From the NCBI RefSeq assembly GCF_019665765.1, contig NZ_CP081150.1:372001-436000 (forward strand): a DNA stretch of 64,000 nt, in the 5' to 3' direction. The translations under genes and the position numbers were made by a program. This document shows, one piece after another, positions 25,219 through 41,305 of this stretch. Under the pieces are notes generated by a model. The model ran no database searches and was not told where the DNA came from. It saw nothing but the letters and a program-made list of their open reading frames with translations. The DNA comes from Deefgea tanakiae. Its GTDB lineage: Bacteria; Pseudomonadota; Gammaproteobacteria; Burkholderiales; Chitinibacteraceae. The first letter of the stretch is position 1. Each line of letters starts with the position of its first letter.

Positions 25219-25227
25219 ACTTAATCT

Positions 25228-25317
25228 TGGCGGAAGCGCAGAGATTCGAACTCTGGGAGGACTCACATCCTCGACGGTTTTCAAGACCGCTGCCTTAAAC
25301 CACTCAGCCACGCTTCC
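25228..25317 (-). tRNA. tRNA-Ser (anticodon TGA), left copy
   Basis: A 90-nt class II tRNA: acceptor GGAAGCG pairs with CGCTTCC, anticodon loop CTTGAAA (TGA), long variable arm, encoded CCA. It is identical to 41150-41239. The upstream region on the minus strand has only a weak TATTTT -10-like element, so it may depend on island sequence for expression. Confidence 0.95.
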
Positions 25318-25436
25318 GTACTTGATAAAATACCGCAACCAATGCTGAAATTGTGATTCAATTCAAGGGTTTAGGTTTTTTTACTTTTCTTAATTCCTGC
25401 AAGTTCTAAAAGTTGTTTTTAAATAACTCTCAGCGC

Positions 25437-25566: not shown

Positions 25567-26313
25567 TTACGATTGGTTAAGGTAGGCAGAAATAGCCTTA
25601 TTTACATTATGTGGTTTGACTAATTCCGTAGCTAACCGCCGAGCTGCGGTGAGTTGTTTGGGGGAAAGTTTTTGTGCAATAGCATTTTTGTTTTCGTCAT
25701 TTGTGAGCTCAATGTCATTTCCTTTGCTTTTGAATATCATGTCACTTGCACTTAGAAGCGCATAGGAAATTTCAAAATTCTTTGGTACGCCGTCACCAGT
25801 ATCATAGAGGCTTGATAGCGATAATAGGCACCACGGATCCCCTAGTTCCGCACCTTTGAGATTCCAGCTGGCTGCTTTAGAGTAATTGATTGGAACTCCA
25901 GAACCCATTATGTAAAGCTTACCGAGGCTGTTCATTGCATTGGTATTACCCTGCTCAGCTGCTTTAATATACAAACGTCGAGCTTCGCTAACATTCTTTC
26001 GAACGCCATTACCATATTCATATAATTGGCCAAGTTCATATGTTGCTTCGACAAGCCCTTTACTTGCTGCTTTGCTTAACCATTTAAGCGCAAGACTGTA
26101 GTCTGTTTGTACTGCCTTATAATTATACCCAGCGTACATCTTTCCAAGTTCTAGTTGGGCCTTTGGATTGCCTTGATCAGCCGCCGTAGAAAATTCACTA
26201 AAGGCTGCACGATAATTTTTGGCATTATATGCCGCGATACCTTCATCGTATCCTGCGCTAGCTGGCGTTGAGATTAGGCCTGAAAGGAGTAGAGTAAATA
26301 GTTTGCGTTTCAT
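25567..26313 (-). CDS. Secreted Sel1-like repeat protein
   Basis: 248 residues: a signal peptide (M-K-R-K-L-F-T-L-L-L-S-G, cleavage after P-A-S-A) and then about five Sel1-like repeats with the A-x-x-x-L-G-x-x-Y-x-x-G-x-G-V spacing, for example Y-E-L-G-Q-L-Y-E-Y-G-N-G-V. Sel1 repeats form alpha solenoids that bind other proteins, here in the periplasm. The C-terminal 60 residues match the end of the second Sel1 protein at 27614 (L-S-P-K-Q-L-T-A-A-R-R-L), so the two are paralogues. Confidence 0.75.
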   Translation of the reverse strand: MKRKLFTLLLSGLISTPASAGYDEGIAAYNAKNYRAAFSEFSTAADQGNPKAQLELGKMYAGYNYKAVQTDYSLALKWLSKAASKGLVEATYELGQLYEYGNGVRKNVSEARRLYIKAAEQGNTNAMNSLGKLYIMGSGVPINYSKAASWNLKGAELGDPWCLLSLSSLYDTGDGVPKNFEISYALLSASDMIFKSKGNDIELTNDENKNAIAQKLSPKQLTAARRLATELVKPHNVNKAISAYLNQS

Positions 26314-26393
26314 TTTTATCCGTTCTATTTTAACTTATTAATTGGCTTTTTAAATTGTTAGGTTTTTTGGTAGTAACTGTTTTACCTTGGTGT

Positions 26394-27521
26394 TTATTTT
26401 TTAACTCTTATTGCGCAAAGAAAGTGTTCGCGTAACTTAATGTTGTATTTGATTTCTATTAAAGCGGACTCAGTGCAGTAGATTAGGGTTTCGTTGTGTC
26501 TGTCGATCAATTTCCAAGTAAATTCTTCGTTTTTGTCGTGGTCTATTTTTCTTTTTATTGTGTAGAATTTCTTTATTTCTTTTTCCTTTTCAATTTTTCT
26601 TGCTTCTTCCATTTTTTCGTCGTTTTTTGCGGAGTTGCTAAGTTCTTTTAATGCCGCTAGGTGCTTCTTTTTGTTTTCTTCTGTTTGGATAGAGTCAGTT
26701 GATTGTTGTTTTTTTGCTTGGTCTATTTGGCTTTTACTCGTAATTATTGAAATTGAGATTACTTTTGGATTTAAGAAGATATCAGTAGGGCTTGATATAC
26801 TGGTTGAGCGTGAAGCTCCATCTAGTGTTCTTACGGAAACATTCCATTTTACTGGGTATACGCATTTTTTCTTTTCGAGACTATCACAGATACCTAAAAA
26901 CTCAAGTCGGTAAGTTGGGTCAGAAACATAGAAACCACTTGGTGAATTTGGTGTTCTGCTTATTAGTGTTGAGTCTAGATTTGCTAGTGTTGAAATGAGT
27001 GGGTATTTTTTCGGATCGCCCATAAATGGCAGGTCTAACTTATACGCTGGTGATTTATATACATGGCCAGTAGCACTTCCTAATCTGAATCCAATATTAG
27101 TAGCGCCATCACCCTCATAGCTTAGATCAGGTCTAAAAGTGTAAATTTCAGTAATGATTGCATCATAGCCTGATACGAGGTCATAGCCTGATGCGCGGTT
27201 TCTAGATTTTCTATCCTCTTCTATTTGGTTAACGGCTGCTTTAAGAGTATCGTCTGGAGTTGGTGCTGCTAATCTTGGGAAGTTGCTGTTTATATCGGTT
27301 ATAGCTATTTCTTTGTTAGCTTTAATTGTTCTAGGTTCCAAGCGACGAACTAATATCTGCACCTCATTTTCGTTTGCAAAAGTGCGCAATGATGTCTTTG
27401 TGATGTTGGATTGAGTTTTTAGATAATCTTTTGGGTATAGAGCTGGGCCTGAGCATGCAGATAAAGTAATTACCAAAGTAGGTAGAGTTAATTTTAATCC
27501 AATGGTTTTGATATATGTCAC
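26394..27521 (-). CDS. Putative lipoprotein, uncharacterised
   Basis: 375 residues. The N-terminus has a lipoprotein signal (T-L-V-I-T-L-S-A-C-S-G, lipobox L-S-A-C). The middle is beta-rich, and a charged helical stretch rich in K/E (residues 265-320, probable coiled coil) precedes the C-terminus. Start is GTG with a weak ribosome site. A near-tandem 18-bp duplication encodes R-A-S-G-Y-D-L-V-S-G-Y-D. No family recognised. The gene is AT-rich and lies between the two Sel1 paralogues in the same orientation. Confidence 0.6.
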   Translation of the reverse strand: MTYIKTIGLKLTLPTLVITLSACSGPALYPKDYLKTQSNITKTSLRTFANENEVQILVRRLEPRTIKANKEIAITDINSNFPRLAAPTPDDTLKAAVNQIEEDRKSRNRASGYDLVSGYDAIITEIYTFRPDLSYEGDGATNIGFRLGSATGHVYKSPAYKLDLPFMGDPKKYPLISTLANLDSTLISRTPNSPSGFYVSDPTYRLEFLGICDSLEKKKCVYPVKWNVSVRTLDGASRSTSISSPTDIFLNPKVISISIITSKSQIDQAKKQQSTDSIQTEENKKKHLAALKELSNSAKNDEKMEEARKIEKEKEIKKFYTIKRKIDHDKNEEFTWKLIDRHNETLIYCTESALIEIKYNIKLREHFLCAIRVKK

Positions 27522-27613
27522 TTGATGTTCTCTTTTAAAAAGTAAAGGGCTGTTGAGTGGAGCTAATGCTATGAGTAGCTTTATTGAAATATTTGCACAA
27601 AAGATGAGTCGAT

Positions 27614-28450
27614 TTAGATTAAGTTCCTGAGATAGGTATCAATTGCGCGTTTTAAATTATTGGGTCTGGCGATTTCTTGGCTGAGCTGCTTTGCTTCTGC
27701 AAGCTCTTGCGGGCTTAATTGCTCGGCTGCGAGTGATTTGCTTTTGGCTGTATTTGTGGTTGAGTCTTTGGCGGCCAGACTAAATAGTGCATAAGCCACT
27801 TCCCCGCTTTGCGGTACACCTTGCCCATCCATATACAGCTGGCCGAGATGGGCTTGCGCGATTGCCATACCCTGTTCGGCTGCTTTGCTGTACCAGTGAG
27901 CGGCAAGGGAATTATCCTGTTGCACGCCTTGGCCTTTGGAGTACATCAATCCAAGGCTAAATTGTGCTTTGGGCACTCCTTGTTCGGCGGCTTTGCGACA
28001 CCAGCTTGCTGCTTGAGTAAAATCTTGCGGTACACCCTGACCCTTTGCATACATCACTGCGATATTGTATTGCGCTGTGTTTTCGCCTTGCTCAGCGGCT
28101 TTTCGAAACCAATTAAAAGATTGGGCATCATCTTGCGGCACTCCTTGCCCATTCATATACAACACACCAAGGTTGTATTGAGCAGTGCTGTGGCCTTGTT
28201 CAGCAGCTTTGCGATACCAATGGGTGGCTTGGGTAAAATTTTGTGGTACGCCACGGCCAGTCGCGTGCATTACGCCAAGGCTGAACTGCGCTTTGGGATT
28301 GCCTTGCTCGGCGGCTTTGCGAAATTCGCTAGCCGCCAAGACAAAATTGCTCGCATTATGTGCAGCCATCGCTTCATCAAAGCCAGCATTCGCTATATTG
28401 AACAGCAAATAAGCAAGTAAGACTGGCAGTAATGAGTGTTTTAAGTGCAT
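27614..28450 (-). CDS. Secreted Sel1-like repeat protein with six repeats
   Basis: 278 residues with a signal peptide (L-L-P-V-L-L-A-Y-L-L-F-N-I-A-N-A) and six nearly perfect 36-residue Sel1 repeats of the form W-Y-R-K-A-A-E-Q-G-x-x-x-A-Q-Y-N-L-G-V-L-Y, each ending G-Q-G-V-P-Q-D. The high repeat identity suggests recent internal duplication. Probably a periplasmic scaffold. Paralogous to the protein at 25567. Confidence 0.8.
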   Translation of the reverse strand: MHLKHSLLPVLLAYLLFNIANAGFDEAMAAHNASNFVLAASEFRKAAEQGNPKAQFSLGVMHATGRGVPQNFTQATHWYRKAAEQGHSTAQYNLGVLYMNGQGVPQDDAQSFNWFRKAAEQGENTAQYNIAVMYAKGQGVPQDFTQAASWCRKAAEQGVPKAQFSLGLMYSKGQGVQQDNSLAAHWYSKAAEQGMAIAQAHLGQLYMDGQGVPQSGEVAYALFSLAAKDSTTNTAKSKSLAAEQLSPQELAEAKQLSQEIARPNNLKRAIDTYLRNLI

Positions 28451-31092: not shown

Positions 31093-31419
31093 ATGGCGGA
31101 TTTAGCAAAAATTCTGGGTGAAAATATCAAGAAAGCTCGACAGGCTGCCAAGTTGACGCAAGAAGTACTGGCTGAAGCCATCAGCCTCGATTCTCGATCT
31201 ATTAGTCGGATTGAGCGTGGCAATGCTTTGCCTAGCCTGAGTACGCTTGAGGCAATTTCGATTACGTTAAATGTAGGCTTGGGCGAGCTGTTCGAAGGCA
31301 TGACGAAATCAAAAAGTGAAATTGCACAGGAAATTGAGTCCTTGCTAGCCACGCTACCCGCACAAAAACAGCAAGGCTTGCTTGAGCTGGTGCGTTCTAT
31401 GGTTCGCATTGCAAAATAA
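31093..31419 (+). CDS. XRE-family transcriptional regulator
   Basis: 108 residues with an N-terminal Cro/CI-type helix-turn-helix (I-K-K-A-R-Q-A-A-K-L-T-Q-E-V-L-A-E-A and S-R-S-I-S-R-I-E-R-G) and a short helical C-terminus for dimerisation. It is the only plus-strand gene in the left half of island 2. Likely regulates itself and the divergent cargo genes. Confidence 0.8.
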   Translation: MADLAKILGENIKKARQAAKLTQEVLAEAISLDSRSISRIERGNALPSLSTLEAISITLNVGLGELFEGMTKSKSEIAQEIESLLATLPAQKQQGLLELVRSMVRIAK

Positions 31420-31473: not shown

Positions 31474-31983
31474 TTAGATACATGAAGCATTTGTTACGGT
31501 GTATGTGTCGCTACCAAAACGAAACTCGGCCAGATCGCCGTTGAGCTCACAATCGCGTGCCAAACTGTCATAGTCGATGTAGTTGCGTACAGCATCAGGA
31601 ATGCTTGTTAGATAACATTCATCAAACAATTCAGCTGCGGCATCTTTAAGGCTGCATGTGGTAATGCAAACCTCGTCTATTTTTGCGATTGCGTCGTTAA
31701 GACAATAGTTCGCTTCGTGCACTAGATAGAACAGCGCCACTTTTTCGCTGGCGCTCATATCTTCGATTTCGTCAAAATATTGCGCAACGCTCGATTGATC
31801 TAGTTGCAGGGCGTTGATTAGTTCGGCATCGTCCGCTTCATTTAATTGAATTTCGTATTCTTCAACGGTATTTCCGTAGCAATCAATGTGCGACGCTGAT
31901 TTAGCGGCAAATTCAGCAGTAGACGAAAAGTAAAAACCAACAGCTGATGTATTGTAAGGTTGAGCGAAAAAAGTAGTAGTCAT
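31474..31983 (-). CDS. ardA: Antirestriction protein ArdA
   Basis: 169 residues from the ATG at 31983 (M-T-T-T-F-F-A-Q-P-Y-N-T-S-A-V-G-F-Y-F), which matches the family start and usual length of about 166; the longer frame upstream is non-coding. The protein is strongly acidic along its length, as expected for a DNA mimic, and ends with I-P-D-A-V-R-N-Y-I-D-Y-D. ArdA proteins inhibit type I restriction enzymes and are typical of conjugative plasmids and integrative elements, protecting DNA on entry. Confidence 0.8.
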   Translation of the reverse strand: MTTTFFAQPYNTSAVGFYFSSTAEFAAKSASHIDCYGNTVEEYEIQLNEADDAELINALQLDQSSVAQYFDEIEDMSASEKVALFYLVHEANYCLNDAIAKIDEVCITTCSLKDAAAELFDECYLTSIPDAVRNYIDYDSLARDCELNGDLAEFRFGSDTYTVTNASCI

Positions 31984-32130
31984 GTCTGAAGCCCTTTGCG
32001 ATATTGAAAATTGTTGCTCTCGCTTCGTTCTTCTCGCTCCCATGTGGGGGACGGGAGGGGCTAGTTTTGTTGGTGAGAAATAAGTAATGGCCGACGATAT
32101 GCCAGCCATTTTGTTTAGTTTGCCCACGAA

Positions 32131-32923
32131 AGCCCCTCTCATCTATGAGTCGAGGGGCATTTTGCTGGGCAGATAAATGGTTGGCCGTTGGCTTGCTTCG
32201 ATGATTTTGGCTGAGCTTCGAGTGTCGAGAGGTGTGCCACAAAGCAAAGCGGCTGGCGCAGCTGTTGACTTGAAGCGAAGTGCTATTGCAGTTTTAAAGC
32301 CCGAAGGGGCGAATTCCGCAGCAAAAATAGCCCGCTTTATGGCTATTTGCAGCGTCGTGGAAGGCGATGCTCGACGCCTACGACGAGTACGTGCACGGAG
32401 GAGCTAATGAATTCATTAGGTTGAGCAATAATTGAGCTTGCGAAATTTTGCGACTCCTGATGGAAAGCCATCCCAATGGCTGGTCATTAGCTATGGTCAG
32501 CATGACAGGGGGGCTCCGCCAGACCGAGACAATGTTACGGAACCCAGTTTCCCCGGGGAAAATGAAGGTGAGCGTTAATTGATGATGGGCTTTGAGTGGA
32601 ATTTCTCAAAGCCCATCGTCATATGTGACGAGGTCTGGCCGCCCCCCTTGGCAAAAAACTAGGTCGCTGAGGCCCCAGCCGAATTCGAGATGCCGCGTCC
32701 AGCGGAGAACATCGCGATTGCCCGACGTTTTGCGCAGCAGGTTTGTTTAGCTATGCCCGTATATCAGCTCGACAGGGCTGTTTATATTGAGGGGGAATTC
32801 GGGATTTTGATTTTGACGTGTTTTCCCTGCGTTTTTTCAGCTCATTTCATGTGATTTGCTTAGAAGCGGCAAGGCTCCGATGTTTGTTGCTATACGTAGT
32901 TTCAACAAGATTAGGAGATTCAT
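32131..32923. other. Structured non-coding region, candidate replication or transfer origin
   Basis: Nearly 800 bp without a credible gene, dense in dyad symmetry: GCCCCTC/GAGGGGC (32131-32157), the palindrome CTAATGAATTCATTAG (32404-32419), a small stem AGCCAT/ATGGCT (32466-32481), the palindrome TTTCCCCGGGGAAA (32548-32561), a 17-bp stem with 8-nt loop (32580-32621) and an enclosing pair of GC-rich arms (32508-32525 with 32632-32647). It directly precedes two replication-type genes. Function as an origin is inferred. Confidence 0.5.
32580..32621. repeat. Long hairpin inside the structured region
   Basis: Arms 32580-32596 and 32605-32621 pair over 17 bp with one G-T wobble and an 8-nt loop. 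The outer arms at 32508-32525 and 32632-32647 (left GGGGGG...GCCAGACC, right its complement with a 2-nt difference) enclose it. Confidence 0.8.
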
Positions 32924-33865
32924 ATGCAATACATGCAACTTACCCCTGCCGATAGAAAGGTAAACCTGCTAGCGGGGTTTGCTAAGTTTGGTTTTTTAAG
33001 TTTTGATGAGGCATGTGCCATTCAGTGCGGCAATATCAAAACGACAAGAAGTGATTTGGCATACCTTTTTCGGCAAGGATTATTGGCAAAAAGAAAAATC
33101 ACTGGCTTTAGGCCAGACATCATTTTCATTACGAAGAAGGGCGCAAGTTTCGTATCTACGCATTTTGAAACTGGTGTGCAGCATTATGCTGATTATGCCA
33201 AGACAAGCATGGGGCGAGCGATTCATAGGGTTTACACCGCAAATATTATGTTGGCAAGGCGATTGCAAATCACTGCCCGTCGGCTAGAAAAGACAGTGAA
33301 TACCTCGGTAAGCGGAGTGGATGCACTCAGCAAGGTTAATCGACTGCTGACAAGAATATCGCTGGTGTCTGAATTGGATTTTTATGCGGATAAGAATCGG
33401 TACATCTGCAAGGGTAAGCTTGCAGATGGCCTCATCGTGACGCAGTCTGCTAATCCGAGTGAACCTGCCGCAGTGACTTGGATCGAGAACGAAAAAACAC
33501 CAAAAGGCCAGAAACAATTTCGTCATCTGGTTACTTTTTTGACCGGTATTCGACTGGATAAGTGTCAAGCTATCCAAGGCAATCGTGCATCACAACTGCA
33601 GGCTAGTATTCCGCTGCTGCATGGTGCAGCGCAACTCAAGAGTGTGGCGTTTTACGTGAATTCATCACCTCTAGGTGCAGGGGATTTTGCTGCTAGGTTA
33701 CAAAGCAGGATGGATGACGAATCCTATGCCTATCTTACAAAAAATCAATTTATCAAGTTTGTACCATATCGATTAACAGATTATTTGCATCATGCTAGTC
33801 CAACGGCTGCAGTGATCGCAGCAAGTCCATTGCTTGATAAGAATTATTCTTTGGTCTTTGATTAA
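32924..33865 (+). CDS. Replication-relaxation-like DNA-binding protein
   Basis: 313 residues. The N-terminal 90 look like a winged helix (F-L-S-F-D-E-A-C-A-I-Q, then D-L-A-Y-L-F-R-Q-G-L-L-A-K-R-K), as in replication-relaxation proteins of plasmids and integrative elements. The middle contains A-D-G-L-I-V and, after a gap, V-T-W-I-E-N-E-K-T, the D...E-x-E/K spacing seen in PD-(D/E)XK nuclease folds; that reading is tentative. AGGAG precedes the ATG. It lies between the structured region and the HUH-helicase gene, and ends at a strong terminator. Confidence 0.5.
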   Translation: MQYMQLTPADRKVNLLAGFAKFGFLSFDEACAIQCGNIKTTRSDLAYLFRQGLLAKRKITGFRPDIIFITKKGASFVSTHFETGVQHYADYAKTSMGRAIHRVYTANIMLARRLQITARRLEKTVNTSVSGVDALSKVNRLLTRISLVSELDFYADKNRYICKGKLADGLIVTQSANPSEPAAVTWIENEKTPKGQKQFRHLVTFLTGIRLDKCQAIQGNRASQLQASIPLLHGAAQLKSVAFYVNSSPLGAGDFAARLQSRMDDESYAYLTKNQFIKFVPYRLTDYLHHASPTAAVIAASPLLDKNYSLVFD

Positions 33866-33958
33866 AAAATAATTCTTTCCCTATACTCAATAGGCCATAC
33901 ACTGCAATGCAGCTTAATTTGATTGTACGCAGATATTTGATTTCGACTTCGTGTCGGT

Positions 33959-33995
33959 AATAGCCCCGCCAAAATTGGCGGGGCTATTATTTTTG
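33959..33995 (+). terminator. Strong intrinsic terminator
   Basis: AATAGCCCCGCCAA (33959-33972) and TTGGCGGGGCTATT (33975-33988) form a perfect 14-bp stem around a 2-base centre, followed by A then T-run to 33995. It separates the replication-relaxation-like gene from the HUH-helicase gene. The remainder of 33866-34214 holds a possible leader frame and a small hairpin. Confidence 0.9.
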
Positions 33996-34214: not shown

Positions 34215-37200
34215 ATGACTAACGATTCAAAATACAAATACATAAACCAAAGCATTGTTGAGCGAACTAACTGGGGTAGGCCTGAGATCCGAGCTGCCGC
34301 GATTGAAAAAGCCAATCAGTCTCTTGAGTATATTCAAACCCATTTCAGCCATCGTGAACTGGAAAACGTAAATTTCCTTATTCCAGAGCATCACATCTTG
34401 CGTCTAAAGGACGAGATTTTTGACTTATTCCCGTCATTTGCGAGTCTGTACCAGCAGAAAATTTTTATCCCGCCAACATTAAAATGGTTGCTCGACAAAA
34501 CGACAAATCCGAAGAGCTGGCGAAGGCTGTACAGGGCGAATGTGCTGCAAGCAGTTGAACTTGCCGCGCAAAAAGCAAAGCAGGTCGGTGGTGATTCAGG
34601 TCAGTCTTACGCCTCTAAGGCGGCAATTGCCCATAAGAAATTGCAAATCGATGCTCGTCGTCAGTTTGCTAAAAATCGAGTCCTATTCGACCCAAAAAAA
34701 GCGGCAAAATGTGTAATTACACAGCAAAAGCCGGATAAAAAATTTGCTGAATGGTATTGCCAATTGCTGGCAATGAAATTACTCGCCGAGCATCAAGGTT
34801 TGACTTGCGGGGGTATGATCACGATCAGCCTCCCTCCGGAGTATCACTCAAATCCCCAAAATGCCAAAGATGACTCTAGTCCCGTGAGATGGACTTCCGA
34901 GTATACGATCAAGCAGGGCGCAAAACTGATTACGGACTATTTCAATGCGGTCAAAGCTGCGTTATTGAAGCGAAAAATCAAATTGCTTGCCGTCAAAGTG
35001 GAGGAACCACAAGAGGATGGTACTCCACATTACCATATTGTCATTTGGTATAAGCCTGAATGGTTTGATGACATTAAGTACCAATTGGTGATGAATTTAC
35101 CAAGGCTATATGGCGATAGGTGCAAAATTACAGGGAAAGGTTTCAGCTTTAAAAACAATATAGGATTGGTTATTGCTACGCGTTCTGCTGATATTGTCCA
35201 GCGTAATGATAGCAAGTTGAAATATCAAATCAACAATAGGCAGGGGACTGTGTACGGCATTCACAATGACATGCCATCACAAGGCTATGCTTTTGATTTG
35301 AACAAAGGTGGCGGCGGGGTAAGGTTTGATTTGGGAGCAACCCCAAGCGGAATAATCCCACCTGAACAGCTTTCGCCAATATCTGGAATACAGTCTTTGA
35401 TTAGCTATTTGATTAAGTACATATCGAAAGGGCTTCCGAAGTCTGGAGAACTTACGGAAGATGTTCTGGCGGTGATGGCACATAGAAGTGCTCACGGACT
35501 GAAGGCGATGCAAGCATCGGGGATTCCTGATGGTTCGCTAGGTATTTGGGATGTGGCGTTGCATACGCCTGATCATATTTTAAAAACTTTGGAAGATAGG
35601 CAGACGAAAAATAAGCAAACTGAAATCTTGATCAATGTGATCAGGCATTGCAAAAAGCTTCCTTCGGCATGGTCGAACCCGAATGATGAAGTGCAGTTTC
35701 ATACTAGGCTCTTCGAGCTTTGGGTTTGGATGCTCGATAATGCGGATACGTACAAAATTGAAGTATTGAAAGATATTCAGATTGATAAATCACGTAGCAA
35801 GACCATTGGCCTAATGGTTTACAACGCGAAAACACTTGATCAGTTGATGCATAGTAGTTCTGCAAAAATTAAAGTCAGTCAGCTACAGAGGGAGATGAAA
35901 AGCTTACATAAAAAAGTGCTTGACTGGACGGAAGCTAAAAAGGACATCTCCTCTTTGCAGCAAGAGCTGTCAAAGAAAAGACTACAGCTTAATCAGCGTA
36001 AGCACAGGCTTCTTGTTCGAAAGAATAAGCAGAAATTAGCTATTGCAACTACGGTTAAGACCAAATTTGGCGATTATCAAATTACTACGAATAACCATCG
36101 TGATGGCTATATGACGTATTTAGAACAGCTACGTACATTGGCAACGGAATCTGATAATCAAAATAAGGGCGGTAATGTCGTGTCCGTTTTAAATGAGCCA
36201 AATTATACAAGTGTGGGGCAAGACTCAGTTTTAACAATCAATCATACACAATCGTTGATTGCACATGCAGTTCTCGGTACGTGCGCTGATTCAGATTTAG
36301 CTCAGCAGGTTGCTATTCATGCGCCTATTGGTAAAAACCATGCAATTATGGCTGCAGCGGGTTCGGGAAAGACTTATGTGCTAATCCAAAGAGTGCAAAT
36401 CATGATGAAAGCTGGGGTATCTGCTTCATCAATACTTGTCACGACGTACACAAATGAAGCGGCTGACGAATTAAAGAAAAGATTGGCTCGATTTGGAATA
36501 ACAAGAGTGAGAGTTGGGACTTTGCATTCTATAGCCGGATCGTTGCTTACAGAGCATGGTAGCTCTAAAAGTGTTATTGGGTATGATCAACTTATTGAAC
36601 AAGCAGCCAAAATTGCGGTGCCAAGATTTCATATCCTCGCTGATGAAGCTCAAGACTTAGACGCCAATCAATGGCAGTTGCTGCAAGCGATGGGAATGTC
36701 GATCTACGCAGTTGGCGATACAAGGCAATCTATCTATGGATGGAGAGGGGCGAACTCTGCCCAGTTCACTGATTTCCTTCATTCCTGCGGGAGTGACTTT
36801 TTCGGTACATCTGGTCGTATTGTGATGGCGCACAGCAGAAGGTCATGCGCCGCTATTATTGGGCTTGCCAACAGGCTTTCGGAGCAATATACGCCTTCTG
36901 TTGCGATAAAGCAGGGAGGCTCAGTAATTACCAAGCAGTGTAAAAATGAGGCCTCTGAGCATGAGCAGATATTTGCCTTCGTTAAGGATAGTCAGGGTAA
37001 ATCATTGGTGGTAACGAGAAGCAATACTGAGCGATTGCATATCAAAAAACGTCTGTGGTCAAAAGGCTTACTGGACAAAGCTGACGTTATGACTATTCAT
37101 GCGGCAAAAGGAGCGGAAGCCGACAATGTTGTTCTGCGTTGTGGACAAAGGAAACGTGCAGAAGTCGATGGTCTTGAAACAACGAACGAATGGTACGTGC

Positions 37201-37277
37201 GTATCACAAGAGCAAAGACGAATTTGTTGATTACTGCGGTGGGGGGCTTACCGGTAGCGATTTCGAAGGCTTTATAA
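34215..37277 (+). CDS. Fusion of a phage gpA-type HUH replication endonuclease with a UvrD-type SF1A helicase
   Basis: 1020 residues, strong ribosome site GGAGGGG. Residues 180-420 carry the HUH nickase of the Phage_GPA type: E-P-Q-E-D-G-T-P-H-Y-H (metal-binding H272 and H274), like E-P-H-H-D-x-T-P-H-W-H in P2 gpA, and a double tyrosine Y-L-I-K-Y (Y398, Y402) as in gpA and phiX174 A. Residues about 555-612 are a K/E/Q-rich coiled coil. Residues 690-1020 are a compact UvrD/Rep helicase: A-A-A-G-S-G-K-T (K719), T-T-Y-T-N-E-A-A, Walker B A-D-E-A-Q-D (809-814), V-G-D-T-R-Q-S-I-Y-G-W-R-G (from 833), M-T-I-H-A-A-K-G (from 959) and R-I-T-R-A-K-T. No 2B-sized insertion is evident. It would nick, stay covalently bound and unwind 3'-5' for rolling-circle replication. 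No frameshift or internal stop is seen. Confidence 0.85.
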   Translation: MTNDSKYKYINQSIVERTNWGRPEIRAAAIEKANQSLEYIQTHFSHRELENVNFLIPEHHILRLKDEIFDLFPSFASLYQQKIFIPPTLKWLLDKTTNPKSWRRLYRANVLQAVELAAQKAKQVGGDSGQSYASKAAIAHKKLQIDARRQFAKNRVLFDPKKAAKCVITQQKPDKKFAEWYCQLLAMKLLAEHQGLTCGGMITISLPPEYHSNPQNAKDDSSPVRWTSEYTIKQGAKLITDYFNAVKAALLKRKIKLLAVKVEEPQEDGTPHYHIVIWYKPEWFDDIKYQLVMNLPRLYGDRCKITGKGFSFKNNIGLVIATRSADIVQRNDSKLKYQINNRQGTVYGIHNDMPSQGYAFDLNKGGGGVRFDLGATPSGIIPPEQLSPISGIQSLISYLIKYISKGLPKSGELTEDVLAVMAHRSAHGLKAMQASGIPDGSLGIWDVALHTPDHILKTLEDRQTKNKQTEILINVIRHCKKLPSAWSNPNDEVQFHTRLFELWVWMLDNADTYKIEVLKDIQIDKSRSKTIGLMVYNAKTLDQLMHSSSAKIKVSQLQREMKSLHKKVLDWTEAKKDISSLQQELSKKRLQLNQRKHRLLVRKNKQKLAIATTVKTKFGDYQITTNNHRDGYMTYLEQLRTLATESDNQNKGGNVVSVLNEPNYTSVGQDSVLTINHTQSLIAHAVLGTCADSDLAQQVAIHAPIGKNHAIMAAAGSGKTYVLIQRVQIMMKAGVSASSILVTTYTNEAADELKKRLARFGITRVRVGTLHSIAGSLLTEHGSSKSVIGYDQLIEQAAKIAVPRFHILADEAQDLDANQWQLLQAMGMSIYAVGDTRQSIYGWRGANSAQFTDFLHSCGSDFFGTSGRIVMAHSRRSCAAIIGLANRLSEQYTPSVAIKQGGSVITKQCKNEASEHEQIFAFVKDSQGKSLVVTRSNTERLHIKKRLWSKGLLDKADVMTIHAAKGAEADNVVLRCGQRKRAEVDGLETTNEWYVRITRAKTNLLITAVGGLPVAISKAL

Positions 37278-37551: not shown

Positions 37552-38667
37552 CTACATTTTATCCCGCGAGGAGCGAACTGCAGTCAAGGAAATCACGTTA
37601 TTTATTTTCGGTGTCTGGAATGCAGAGTCACCAACAAATTCAGCTAGAATCTCTGGAGTTACTCCCAAGACAAAAGCCAAATCACTTATAGAAACGCCAA
37701 GCTTTTCATTTAGTGCAGCAATTGCCTTGTGAATTAATTGAGGTTGCTCAACCAGAATAAGGTCATCTCCTTCCTCTTTAGTAGCTTCTCCTTTTCTTTT
37801 TAATCTTATCACTCCCGTCTTGTACTGTTCTTCAGTTAGAAGTCCAAGTTGTTTCGCTCGATATAGAATCGCAGCCTTGCTAACCTTCCAAGTCTGCTTG
37901 AACTCTGAAATACCAGCCCAGTCAATTCGACCACTTTTGGGTCGAGGAAATAAACTCGCCATCGAGATGCGTGGAAGCAGGAGAGCAGAGGCAAAACGAT
38001 TTGCCTCTGACTCTGTAACACGATCTCCAGTAACAACTCCCTCGTGCATGACCAAGTGCCCCACTTCGTGCGCAATGTCAAAACGAAGGCGGCATGGAGA
38101 CTCTTTGGCCAAACTACGAACAATTATTGGTCGTTTAAGAGGAATAGAAAGAGCATCTATTTCTGTTGATATCGAGTCAAAAGAAGTAACAAATGCACCC
38201 ATGCGTTCAGCCAGTCGAGTCATATTGGCAATAGGGCCGAAACCCAGTCCCCATTCTGTTCTGCATCGTTCTGCTGCTCGTTCGATATCTTCTGTGCTTG
38301 CAACTCTTATCGAAGGAAATGCAACGGGTGGCAAAGTTAGTTCTGAATCAAGAAAATCTACCAATCTCCTAAACACCTCAGCTTTAGCAAGAGCAGCAAG
38401 CTTTGTTGAAACTTTGGTGGAGGATAATTTACGAAAATGTACTTTCTCTTCGCCAATCAGCGGGATCGACTTAGGAATAAAAAAAGATGGCAAAACCCCT
38501 AGAGATTTTGCCAAAGCTTCATTCAATTCATCGGTTGGCTCAGTACTACCCATTTCTAGCTTATGAATATATTGTCGAGTTTTTCCTGTTTGCTCGGCAA
38601 CATAGTCAAGAGAGAAACCATGAAACAGTCTGGCCAATCTCAAATTTGACCCATCAAAGGATTTCAT
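37552..38667 (-). CDS. XRE regulator fused to an ImmA/IrrE metallopeptidase
   Basis: 371 residues. An N-terminal Cro/CI HTH (R-L-A-R-L-F-H-G-F-S-L-D-Y-V-A-E-Q-T and Q-Y-I-H-K-L-E-M-G) is joined to an ImmA/IrrE zinc peptidase with H-E-V-G-H (H200-H204) and a downstream E-S-E-A-N-R-F-A. ImmA/IrrE enzymes cleave repressors or partners to switch on element or stress genes, and XRE-COG2856 proteins recur in toxin-antitoxin-like pairs. The gene lies 12 bp downstream of the 198-residue partner. The HTH probably binds the ACTGGTTGACAA repeats upstream of the operon. Confidence 0.85.
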   Translation of the reverse strand: MKSFDGSNLRLARLFHGFSLDYVAEQTGKTRQYIHKLEMGSTEPTDELNEALAKSLGVLPSFFIPKSIPLIGEEKVHFRKLSSTKVSTKLAALAKAEVFRRLVDFLDSELTLPPVAFPSIRVASTEDIERAAERCRTEWGLGFGPIANMTRLAERMGAFVTSFDSISTEIDALSIPLKRPIIVRSLAKESPCRLRFDIAHEVGHLVMHEGVVTGDRVTESEANRFASALLLPRISMASLFPRPKSGRIDWAGISEFKQTWKVSKAAILYRAKQLGLLTEEQYKTGVIRLKRKGEATKEEGDDLILVEQPQLIHKAIAALNEKLGVSISDLAFVLGVTPEILAEFVGDSAFQTPKINNVISLTAVRSSRDKM

Positions 38668-38679
38668 AGCATCACTTCA

Positions 38680-39276
38680 TTACTCTGAACCGGTATTTTT
38701 TTCTTCTTTCCGGTATTGTTTCCCTACTTCAATCTCATCAAGCATAATTTCAACTGACTCTGGTGCAGTTGAATCGACAGATTGAAGAACTGTTACCCTG
38801 TCACCATAAACCCAGTGACTAACTGGTTCTTCAAAATCATTGTATCCAATGAAATGAACACGAGCCTCTTCCTCATCATTTTCTGGTTTCTCTATTACAA
38901 AACGATGGAGACTTGGAATGTCCGAACTAGGCGCAAAAAGACAATCAACTGCATTGTGTCTGAAAAAGCCTCGTTTCTTTGGGCTATCAGGATTGTCTGA
39001 GAAAAATCGAACAGGTATACCATTAATCTCAAACGTTAGATCCATGTTTGGATTAGTTAGCTTCAGCCAAGAATAACGACCCGAAACGCACATCTCAGTG
39101 AGACGATTCTTTTGACGAGCAAAGGTAGTAGTGCCTCTTGAATAGTTATCATCTAGTGGTGTGCTGAGCTGCTTTTCTGTGTCATAAAGAACATTCAAGA
39201 GTTCAGTTGCAACCACGCGAAGGCAGTTTTCTTCAAGGCTGGGAAGAAGCTCCCAAGGAAGTCGAGTATCTGCCAT
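38680..39276 (-). CDS. Uncharacterised partner of the XRE-ImmA/IrrE protein
   Basis: 198 residues from the ATG at 39276 (M-A-D-T-R-L-P-W-E-L-L), with GGAG 8-9 nt upstream. Composition is mixed alpha/beta, acidic at the C-terminus (E-K-P-E-N-D-E-E-E-A), without signal peptide. A central segment (D-L-T-F-E-I-N-G-I-P-V-R-F-F-S-D-N-P) resembles a beta-sandwich edge. No family recognised. It is the first gene of the two-gene operon; as in other XRE-ImmA pairs, it could be a toxin or the peptidase substrate. Confidence 0.65.
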   Translation of the reverse strand: MADTRLPWELLPSLEENCLRVVATELLNVLYDTEKQLSTPLDDNYSRGTTTFARQKNRLTEMCVSGRYSWLKLTNPNMDLTFEINGIPVRFFSDNPDSPKKRGFFRHNAVDCLFAPSSDIPSLHRFVIEKPENDEEEARVHFIGYNDFEEPVSHWVYGDRVTVLQSVDSTAPESVEIMLDEIEVGKQYRKEEKNTGSE

Positions 39277-39310
39277 GCGCAACATCTCCAATTGGTGCAG
39301 GTTTTAGTGT

Positions 39311-41130: not shown

Positions 41131-41149
41131 AGTATTTTATTCAAGTATT

Positions 41150-41239
41150 TGGCGGAAGCGCAGAGATTCGAACTCTGGGAGGACTCACATCCTCGACGGT
41201 TTTCAAGACCGCTGCCTTAAACCACTCAGCCACGCTTCC
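41150..41239 (-). tRNA. tRNA-Ser (anticodon TGA), right copy
   Basis: Identical to 25228-25317 over all 90 nt. Upstream on the minus strand is a credible promoter, GAGACA then 17 bp then TATTAT, so this copy probably keeps the ancestral chromosomal promoter. Confidence 0.95.
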
Positions 41240-41305
41240 GTTTCTTGAACAGGTGCGCATAATAGCAAGCTTTCGCGCCCTTGTCTCGTTTTTTTGTAAT
41301 AAATC

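Follow-up and report, generated by a model that had tools for sequence, protein, structure and literature searches.

The analyzed window, a stretch of 64,000 nucleotides (positions 372001–436000 of the 3.56-Mb single-contig genome of Deefgea tanakiae), contains a gene whose product combines a gpA-type HUH nuclease and a UvrD-like SF1A motor in a single chain. This fusion protein is likely an initiator of rolling-circle replication with a built-in motor for unwinding. A prior reading made from the DNA letters alone (referred to as the sequence-only reading) had claimed the same combination of domains, and Pfam matches to both halves of the protein agree with it. The gene and the features of the surrounding integrative element are listed in Table 1.

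Table 1. Features of the fusion gene and its element (window positions; residue numbers refer to the fusion protein).
Feature	Position	Strand	Remarks
tRNA-Ser(UGA) copy, left flank	25227..25319 (gene 25228-25317)	-	93-bp perfect direct repeat
Xre-type HTH regulator	31093..31419	+
ArdA-like antirestriction protein	31474..32142	-	PF07275 E 9.6e-10
Conserved 313-aa gene, directly upstream of fusion	32924..33865	+	no family match
Candidate origin or terminator	33947..33989	+	CTTCGTGTCGG then perfect 15-bp inverted repeat
HUH-helicase fusion gene (Rep-Hel)	34215..37277	+	1020 aa, ATG to stop
gpA-type HUH nuclease domain, residues 90-460	34482..35594	+	PF05840; H272-Y-H274, Y398-x3-Y402
Linker, residues 461-662	35595..36200	+	predicted helical 554-614 (low-confidence model)
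UvrD-like SF1A motor core, residues 663-1020	36201..37274	+	without 1B or 2B insertion
Motif positions (residues) of motor core			I 713-720, Ia 744, Ic 768, II 810, III 834, IV 874, V 960, VI 994
RmrA-like HTH + IrrE-like (Peptidase_M78) protein, probable cargo	37552..38667	-	PADLOC E 1.7e-168
RmrT-like protein, probable cargo	38680..39291	-	PADLOC E 9.7e-75
Tyrosine recombinase, 527 aa	39494..41077	-	DUF6538 + Phage_integrase; adjoins tRNA
tRNA-Ser(UGA) copy and edges, right flank	41149..41241 (gene 41150-41239)	-	repeat of left copy

Integrity of the fusion gene and its two halves

The frame extends over 1020 codons from an ATG at 34215 to the stop at 37277 and has zero internal stops. In two full-length relatives, a single frame likewise encodes both Phage_GPA (73.5 and 60.4 bits) and UvrD domains. 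One of them, with 75% identity, is encoded on a contig (genome G012) that matches Chitinilyticum piscinae, which NCBI places in the Chitinibacteraceae, and the other, a frame of 1213 codons with 33–34% identity, stems from a second species of Deefgea (genome G018). The occurrence of the same fusion as one open frame in both organisms excludes a local frameshift or assembly join. Thus, the gene is intact as the sequence-only reading had stated, and the artificial joining of two genes that it had named as a risk was not borne out. Both the HUH and the helicase half are clearly under strong purifying selection, with dN/dS values between the window and C. piscinae of 0.079 for the HUH half, 0.121 for the helicase and 0.197 for the linker, the least conserved part of the protein; these values are rough, as synonymous sites are near saturation. 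Together with the full-length relatives, they also rule out a decaying pseudogene.

The profile of Phage_GPA (PF05840) matched residues 93–287 at 60 bits (curated cut-off 31.4), and phrog_91 (“nicking at origin of replication”) matched the fusion protein at 60 bits. In an hhalign comparison, the new HUH domain aligned with stand-alone gpA proteins at a probability of 98.2 (E 3.9e-14). The residues assigned to the two active sites, H272, H274, Y398, Y402 and the Walker lysine K719, were as claimed before and are all invariant among the three full-length fusion proteins. The two histidines and two tyrosines are also invariant across a 23-row alignment including 21 diverse stand-alone viral gpA proteins, as are E264, D268, K401 and K405. 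The spacing from the HUH motif to the first tyrosine is ~124 residues in the window protein vs about 54–64 in stand-alone gpA proteins, and the extra ~60–70 residues were modelled with low confidence. A structural model of the HUH domain based on 23 sequences reached a pTM of 0.67 with pLDDT values of about 75–90 in the core blocks, and placed Y398 and Y402 on a confidently predicted helix. A replication protein of Vibrio cholerae phage V86 was its best viral structure match (E 1.2e-14), and the viral proteins ranking next include some with an annotation as microvirus replication initiators. The top PDB matches, though weak, were HUH proteins as well: the Helitron transposase (7lcc, E 4.9e-3) and nuclease domains of AAV Rep. 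By these sequence and model comparisons, the HUH half is a Phage_GPA nuclease of the P2/phiX gpA type with two tyrosines, and nicking and joining are its predicted activities. The same genome encodes a second, ordinary stand-alone gpA protein elsewhere (616-codon frame; G000:C1:720145-720918, L043).

The linker had been described as a coiled coil joining both domains. Residues ~557–596, among the few parts with pLDDT >50 in a full-length model built from two sequences, whose mean pLDDT of 35 denotes low confidence, were helical there, and this weakly suggests a coiled coil.

In the C-terminal half, UvrD-helicase (PF00580) matched in two stretches with 101.8 bits (best at residues 697–786), UvrD_C matched residues 954–1008, and phrog_1967 (“DNA helicase”) matched at 163 bits. 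Among the Pfam, NCBIfam and PHROG matches of the fusion protein, UvrD-type families were found and no Pif1 family. The sequence motifs include the Walker K719, DEAQ, GDTRQSIYGWRG and YVRITRA, and motif IV, with HSRRS in place of NYRS, is diverged. The sequence-only reading had called this half a complete SF1A helicase. This holds for the motifs, which are all there from I to VI, but not for the subdomains, since the 1B and 2B regions are absent. The distance between motifs Ic and II is 42 amino acids, vs 131 in the host’s own UvrD, and that between motifs IV and V is 86, vs 265 in the host UvrD and 275 in the host Rep. As these are the sites of 1B and 2B in UvrD, the motor lacks the four-subdomain build (1A, 1B, 2A, 2B) of UvrD/Rep/PcrA helicases and, judged from its spacings, is a minimal UvrD-like SF1A core of two bare domains instead of a complete SF1A helicase. 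The lack of 1B and 2B makes its processivity and polarity uncertain; 3′–5′ unwinding and independence from the host PcrA, Rep or UvrD are what we infer.

Two other functions of the helicase half were considered. It could be an ATPase that is degenerate or does not unwind DNA and serves only to open the origin or to remodel the initiator, with unwinding left to a host helicase, as the missing 1B and 2B subdomains and the diverged motif IV might suggest. We consider this improbable, because the catalytic motifs are all intact and purifying selection acts on them, all SF1A motifs are retained even in the 33–34%-identical relative from the second Deefgea species, and removal of 2B from Rep activates its helicase and does not kill it. 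That the protein serves in defence and is related to GajB-type helicases is far less probable still. The helicase half did score 117.6 bits against the PADLOC GajB model, yet the phage-helicase family phrog_1967 scored higher (163 bits), no GajA-like neighbour is present, the N-terminal half belongs to the gpA replication nucleases, and all three copies reside in the same integrase-bearing element. An identity as GajB of a Gabija system was rejected on the PADLOC result and the context.

The integrative element and the occurrence of the fusion

The setting in an integrative element, which had also been claimed, was confirmed by a tyrosine recombinase gene at tRNA-Ser(UGA) and by flanking direct repeats: two identical tRNA-Ser(UGA) genes, 15.9 kb apart, lie within a 93-bp perfect repeat. 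The elements of both relatives are likewise bracketed by two tRNA-Ser genes, and the three fusion genes belong to a single family of elements at tRNA-Ser(UGA). Within the taxonomic family, the 313-aa gene directly upstream of the fusion was found only in the three genomes that hold the fusion. At its left end, the element encodes two Sel1-repeat proteins (window 25567–28450), and the left ends in the relatives also hold Sel1-type genes. The RmrA/RmrT-like pair (37552–39291) beside the Rep gene is missing from the elements of both relatives and is probably anti-phage cargo, as judged from its PADLOC matches; RmrAT had no relevant match in the literature searched. The tRNA-Ser repeats as borders, the conserved 313-aa gene and this RmrAT-like pair go beyond what the sequence-only reading had named.

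The element of the second Deefgea species (L011 10532-14170 and 9228-10169) closely resembles that of the window in its core and recombinase region, yet its fusion gene is only 33–34% identical. The flanks of the exchanged stretch are nearly the same (93% identity upstream and 91% downstream), and the breakpoint is located inside the 313-aa upstream gene. This pattern identifies the difference as a clean replication-module exchange. Since the Rep gene was swapped for a diverged one of the same build between flanks of >90% identity, the build appears to be kept when the module changes.

The tRNA-Ser region is an integration hotspot. Different insertions occupy this site in three relatives (G020, G021 and G008), each with a stand-alone gpA gene of ~600 amino acids (L079, L080, L081). 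As a Zot domain was found in the insertion of G021 (L080) and a Secretin domain in that of G020 (L079), these insertions are probably filamentous prophages. Relatives without the element carry either one copy of tRNA-Ser(UGA) or two tandem identical copies ~155 bp apart (L077, L078, L082, L083, L088); this tandem pair may be native or the scar of a past integration.

The fusion was detected in 3 of the 43 genomes of the family, namely those of D. tanakiae, C. piscinae and the second Deefgea species, and no further full-length relatives were found in 369 genomes of the class and 399 of the order. Across 300 genomes of the order and 398 of the phylum (Pseudomonadota), ~85 other PF05840 matches lay in frames of ≤901 amino acids, none of them a fusion of this kind. 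A profile built from the new type of HUH domain matched 8 other genomes among 350 in the class; their frames measured 531–778 amino acids, and none had a P-loop in the six of these eight genomes whose frames were checked. The GxGK[ST] P-loop was also absent from 137 gpA frames of viral contigs (longest 970 aa). When viral contigs were searched with the helicase alone or the new HUH type alone, no relative was found, and the full-length profile retrieved only stand-alone phage helicases from them. That the fusion originated from a plasmid or phage was rejected, because no record in the plasmid and phage collections covered most of the protein; the matches listed cover the helicase part alone. 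The rarity refers to roughly 1,100 sampled genomes, and the fusion may occur more widely.

Proposed replication mechanism

If the fusion protein initiates rolling-circle replication, the recombinase would excise the element at tRNA-Ser, and the HUH domain would introduce a nick into one strand, at an origin close to the gene, with the 5′ end staying bound via Y398 or Y402. Extension of the 3′ end would fall to the host DNA polymerase, preceded on the template strand by the tethered UvrD-like core moving 3′–5′. Once a round is complete, the displaced strand would be cleaved by the second tyrosine and rejoined into a circle. In this scheme we infer the nicking, the polarity and the cis unwinding, as well as the origin and a circular form of the element. 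Among filamentous phages, the rolling-circle replicators CTXphi, VGJphi and Pf depend on the host UvrD, and those of Escherichia coli on Rep (PMC4863604). A fused UvrD-like motor would thus supply a function that this mode of replication requires, and the element may need less help from its host for its own replication.

A candidate for the origin lies just upstream of the fusion gene, where CTTCGTGTCGG is located at 33947–33957. The CTTNGTGTCGG motif has a single occurrence in the window, against 0.03 expected, and its location is shared by the three elements; this chance figure is optimistic, since the motif was picked after viewing the three sequences. It may represent the nick site or belong to a terminator of the upstream gene, and we regard it as a lead only.

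The protein could also act chiefly as a mobilization relaxase, which nicks an oriT-like site and whose helicase unwinds the strand for export via the conjugation channel of another element, as in TraI but with a different nuclease and motor. The ArdA-like antirestriction gene of the element, a type of gene common on transferable DNA, would fit such a role. Moreover, genome G068 (L182 3598-10765) has a distant, distinct gpA-type HUH gene (770 aa) in one region with genes for a TrwB-like coupling protein and an integrase, and this region may be a mobilizable element that perhaps uses the gpA-type protein as a relaxase. However, no coupling protein or transfer gene was recognized in the element of the window, and the closest relatives of the nuclease are phage replication proteins. 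The direction of movement also argues against a relaxase, because an SF1A core is expected to move 3′–5′ and TraI helicases move 5′–3′ on the bound strand. We therefore consider mobilization as the main role unlikely, although it is less so than either of the two alternative functions of the helicase half.

Returning to the preferred replication initiator, a more far-reaching version would have initiation, unwinding and closure carried out by one protein, a two-tyrosine (Y2) initiator with a 2B-less UvrD-like motor in cis and no host accessory helicase. Such a protein would be an independent bacterial equivalent of the Helitron RepHel, expected to act on the opposite strand. For this version, we see the arguments as evenly balanced.

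Comparison with known systems

The nuclease domain, with its HxH and Y-x3-Y motifs, is common to the window protein and the phage gpA-type Y2 initiators (PF05840) of P2, phiX174 and inoviruses. These initiators are stand-alone proteins (most full frames 530–900 aa) that recruit the host Rep or UvrD, whereas the window protein is fused to its motor. The latter shares the SF1A motifs with UvrD/Rep/PcrA and phage helicases (phrog_1967), from which it differs in its fusion to a nuclease and the lack of 1B and 2B. The stand-alone phage helicase L013, for example, has long spacings (Ic–II 123 aa, IV–V 192 aa), unlike the fusion.

TraI and TrwC conjugative relaxases resemble the window protein in combining an HUH nuclease and an SF1 helicase in a single bacterial chain, but they have a MOB_F relaxase and a RecD-like 5′–3′ motor. 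Neither MOB_F relaxase nor RecD-like families were found in family searches of the fusion protein. In Helitrons and TraI, the 5′–3′ motor runs on the bound strand, whereas a 3′–5′ motor would use the template strand. The Helitron RepHel likewise joins a Y2 HUH nuclease with an SF1 helicase. It is eukaryotic with a Pif1-type (SF1B) helicase, whereas the element of the window encodes a UvrD-type motor and integrates by a tyrosine recombinase at a tRNA gene. Hence, the fusion is best read as a bacterial counterpart of the RepHel build and not as a relative. An HUH nuclease and a helicase in one chain also occur in bacterial pCRESS and CRESS-virus Reps, including those of integrated bacterial plasmids (PMC6668415); these have an SF3 helicase and another HUH family, in contrast to the SF1A motifs and Phage_GPA domain of the window protein.

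No characterized equivalent of the fusion is described in the literature searched, in line with the sequence-only reading, and no paper on Phage_GPA and UvrD in one protein was found in this literature, which included only a minority of subscription journals. According to a published survey, all known prokaryotic Y2 proteins are without a helicase, and Helitrons were proposed to have gained theirs after entering eukaryotes (PMC6213432). The Reps of isolated prokaryotic ssDNA viruses are not fused to a helicase, and one from the cell is recruited (PMC6668415). The conserved bacterial fusion of a Y2-HUH and an SF1 domain is a counterexample to the statement that prokaryotic Y2 proteins have no helicase (PMC6213432), and shows that the nuclease-helicase build can arise in bacteria. 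It also offers a compact protein in which the coupling of nicking and unwinding is directly testable. In related bacterial phages, these two functions are divided between separate phage and host proteins, whereas here they would reside in one.
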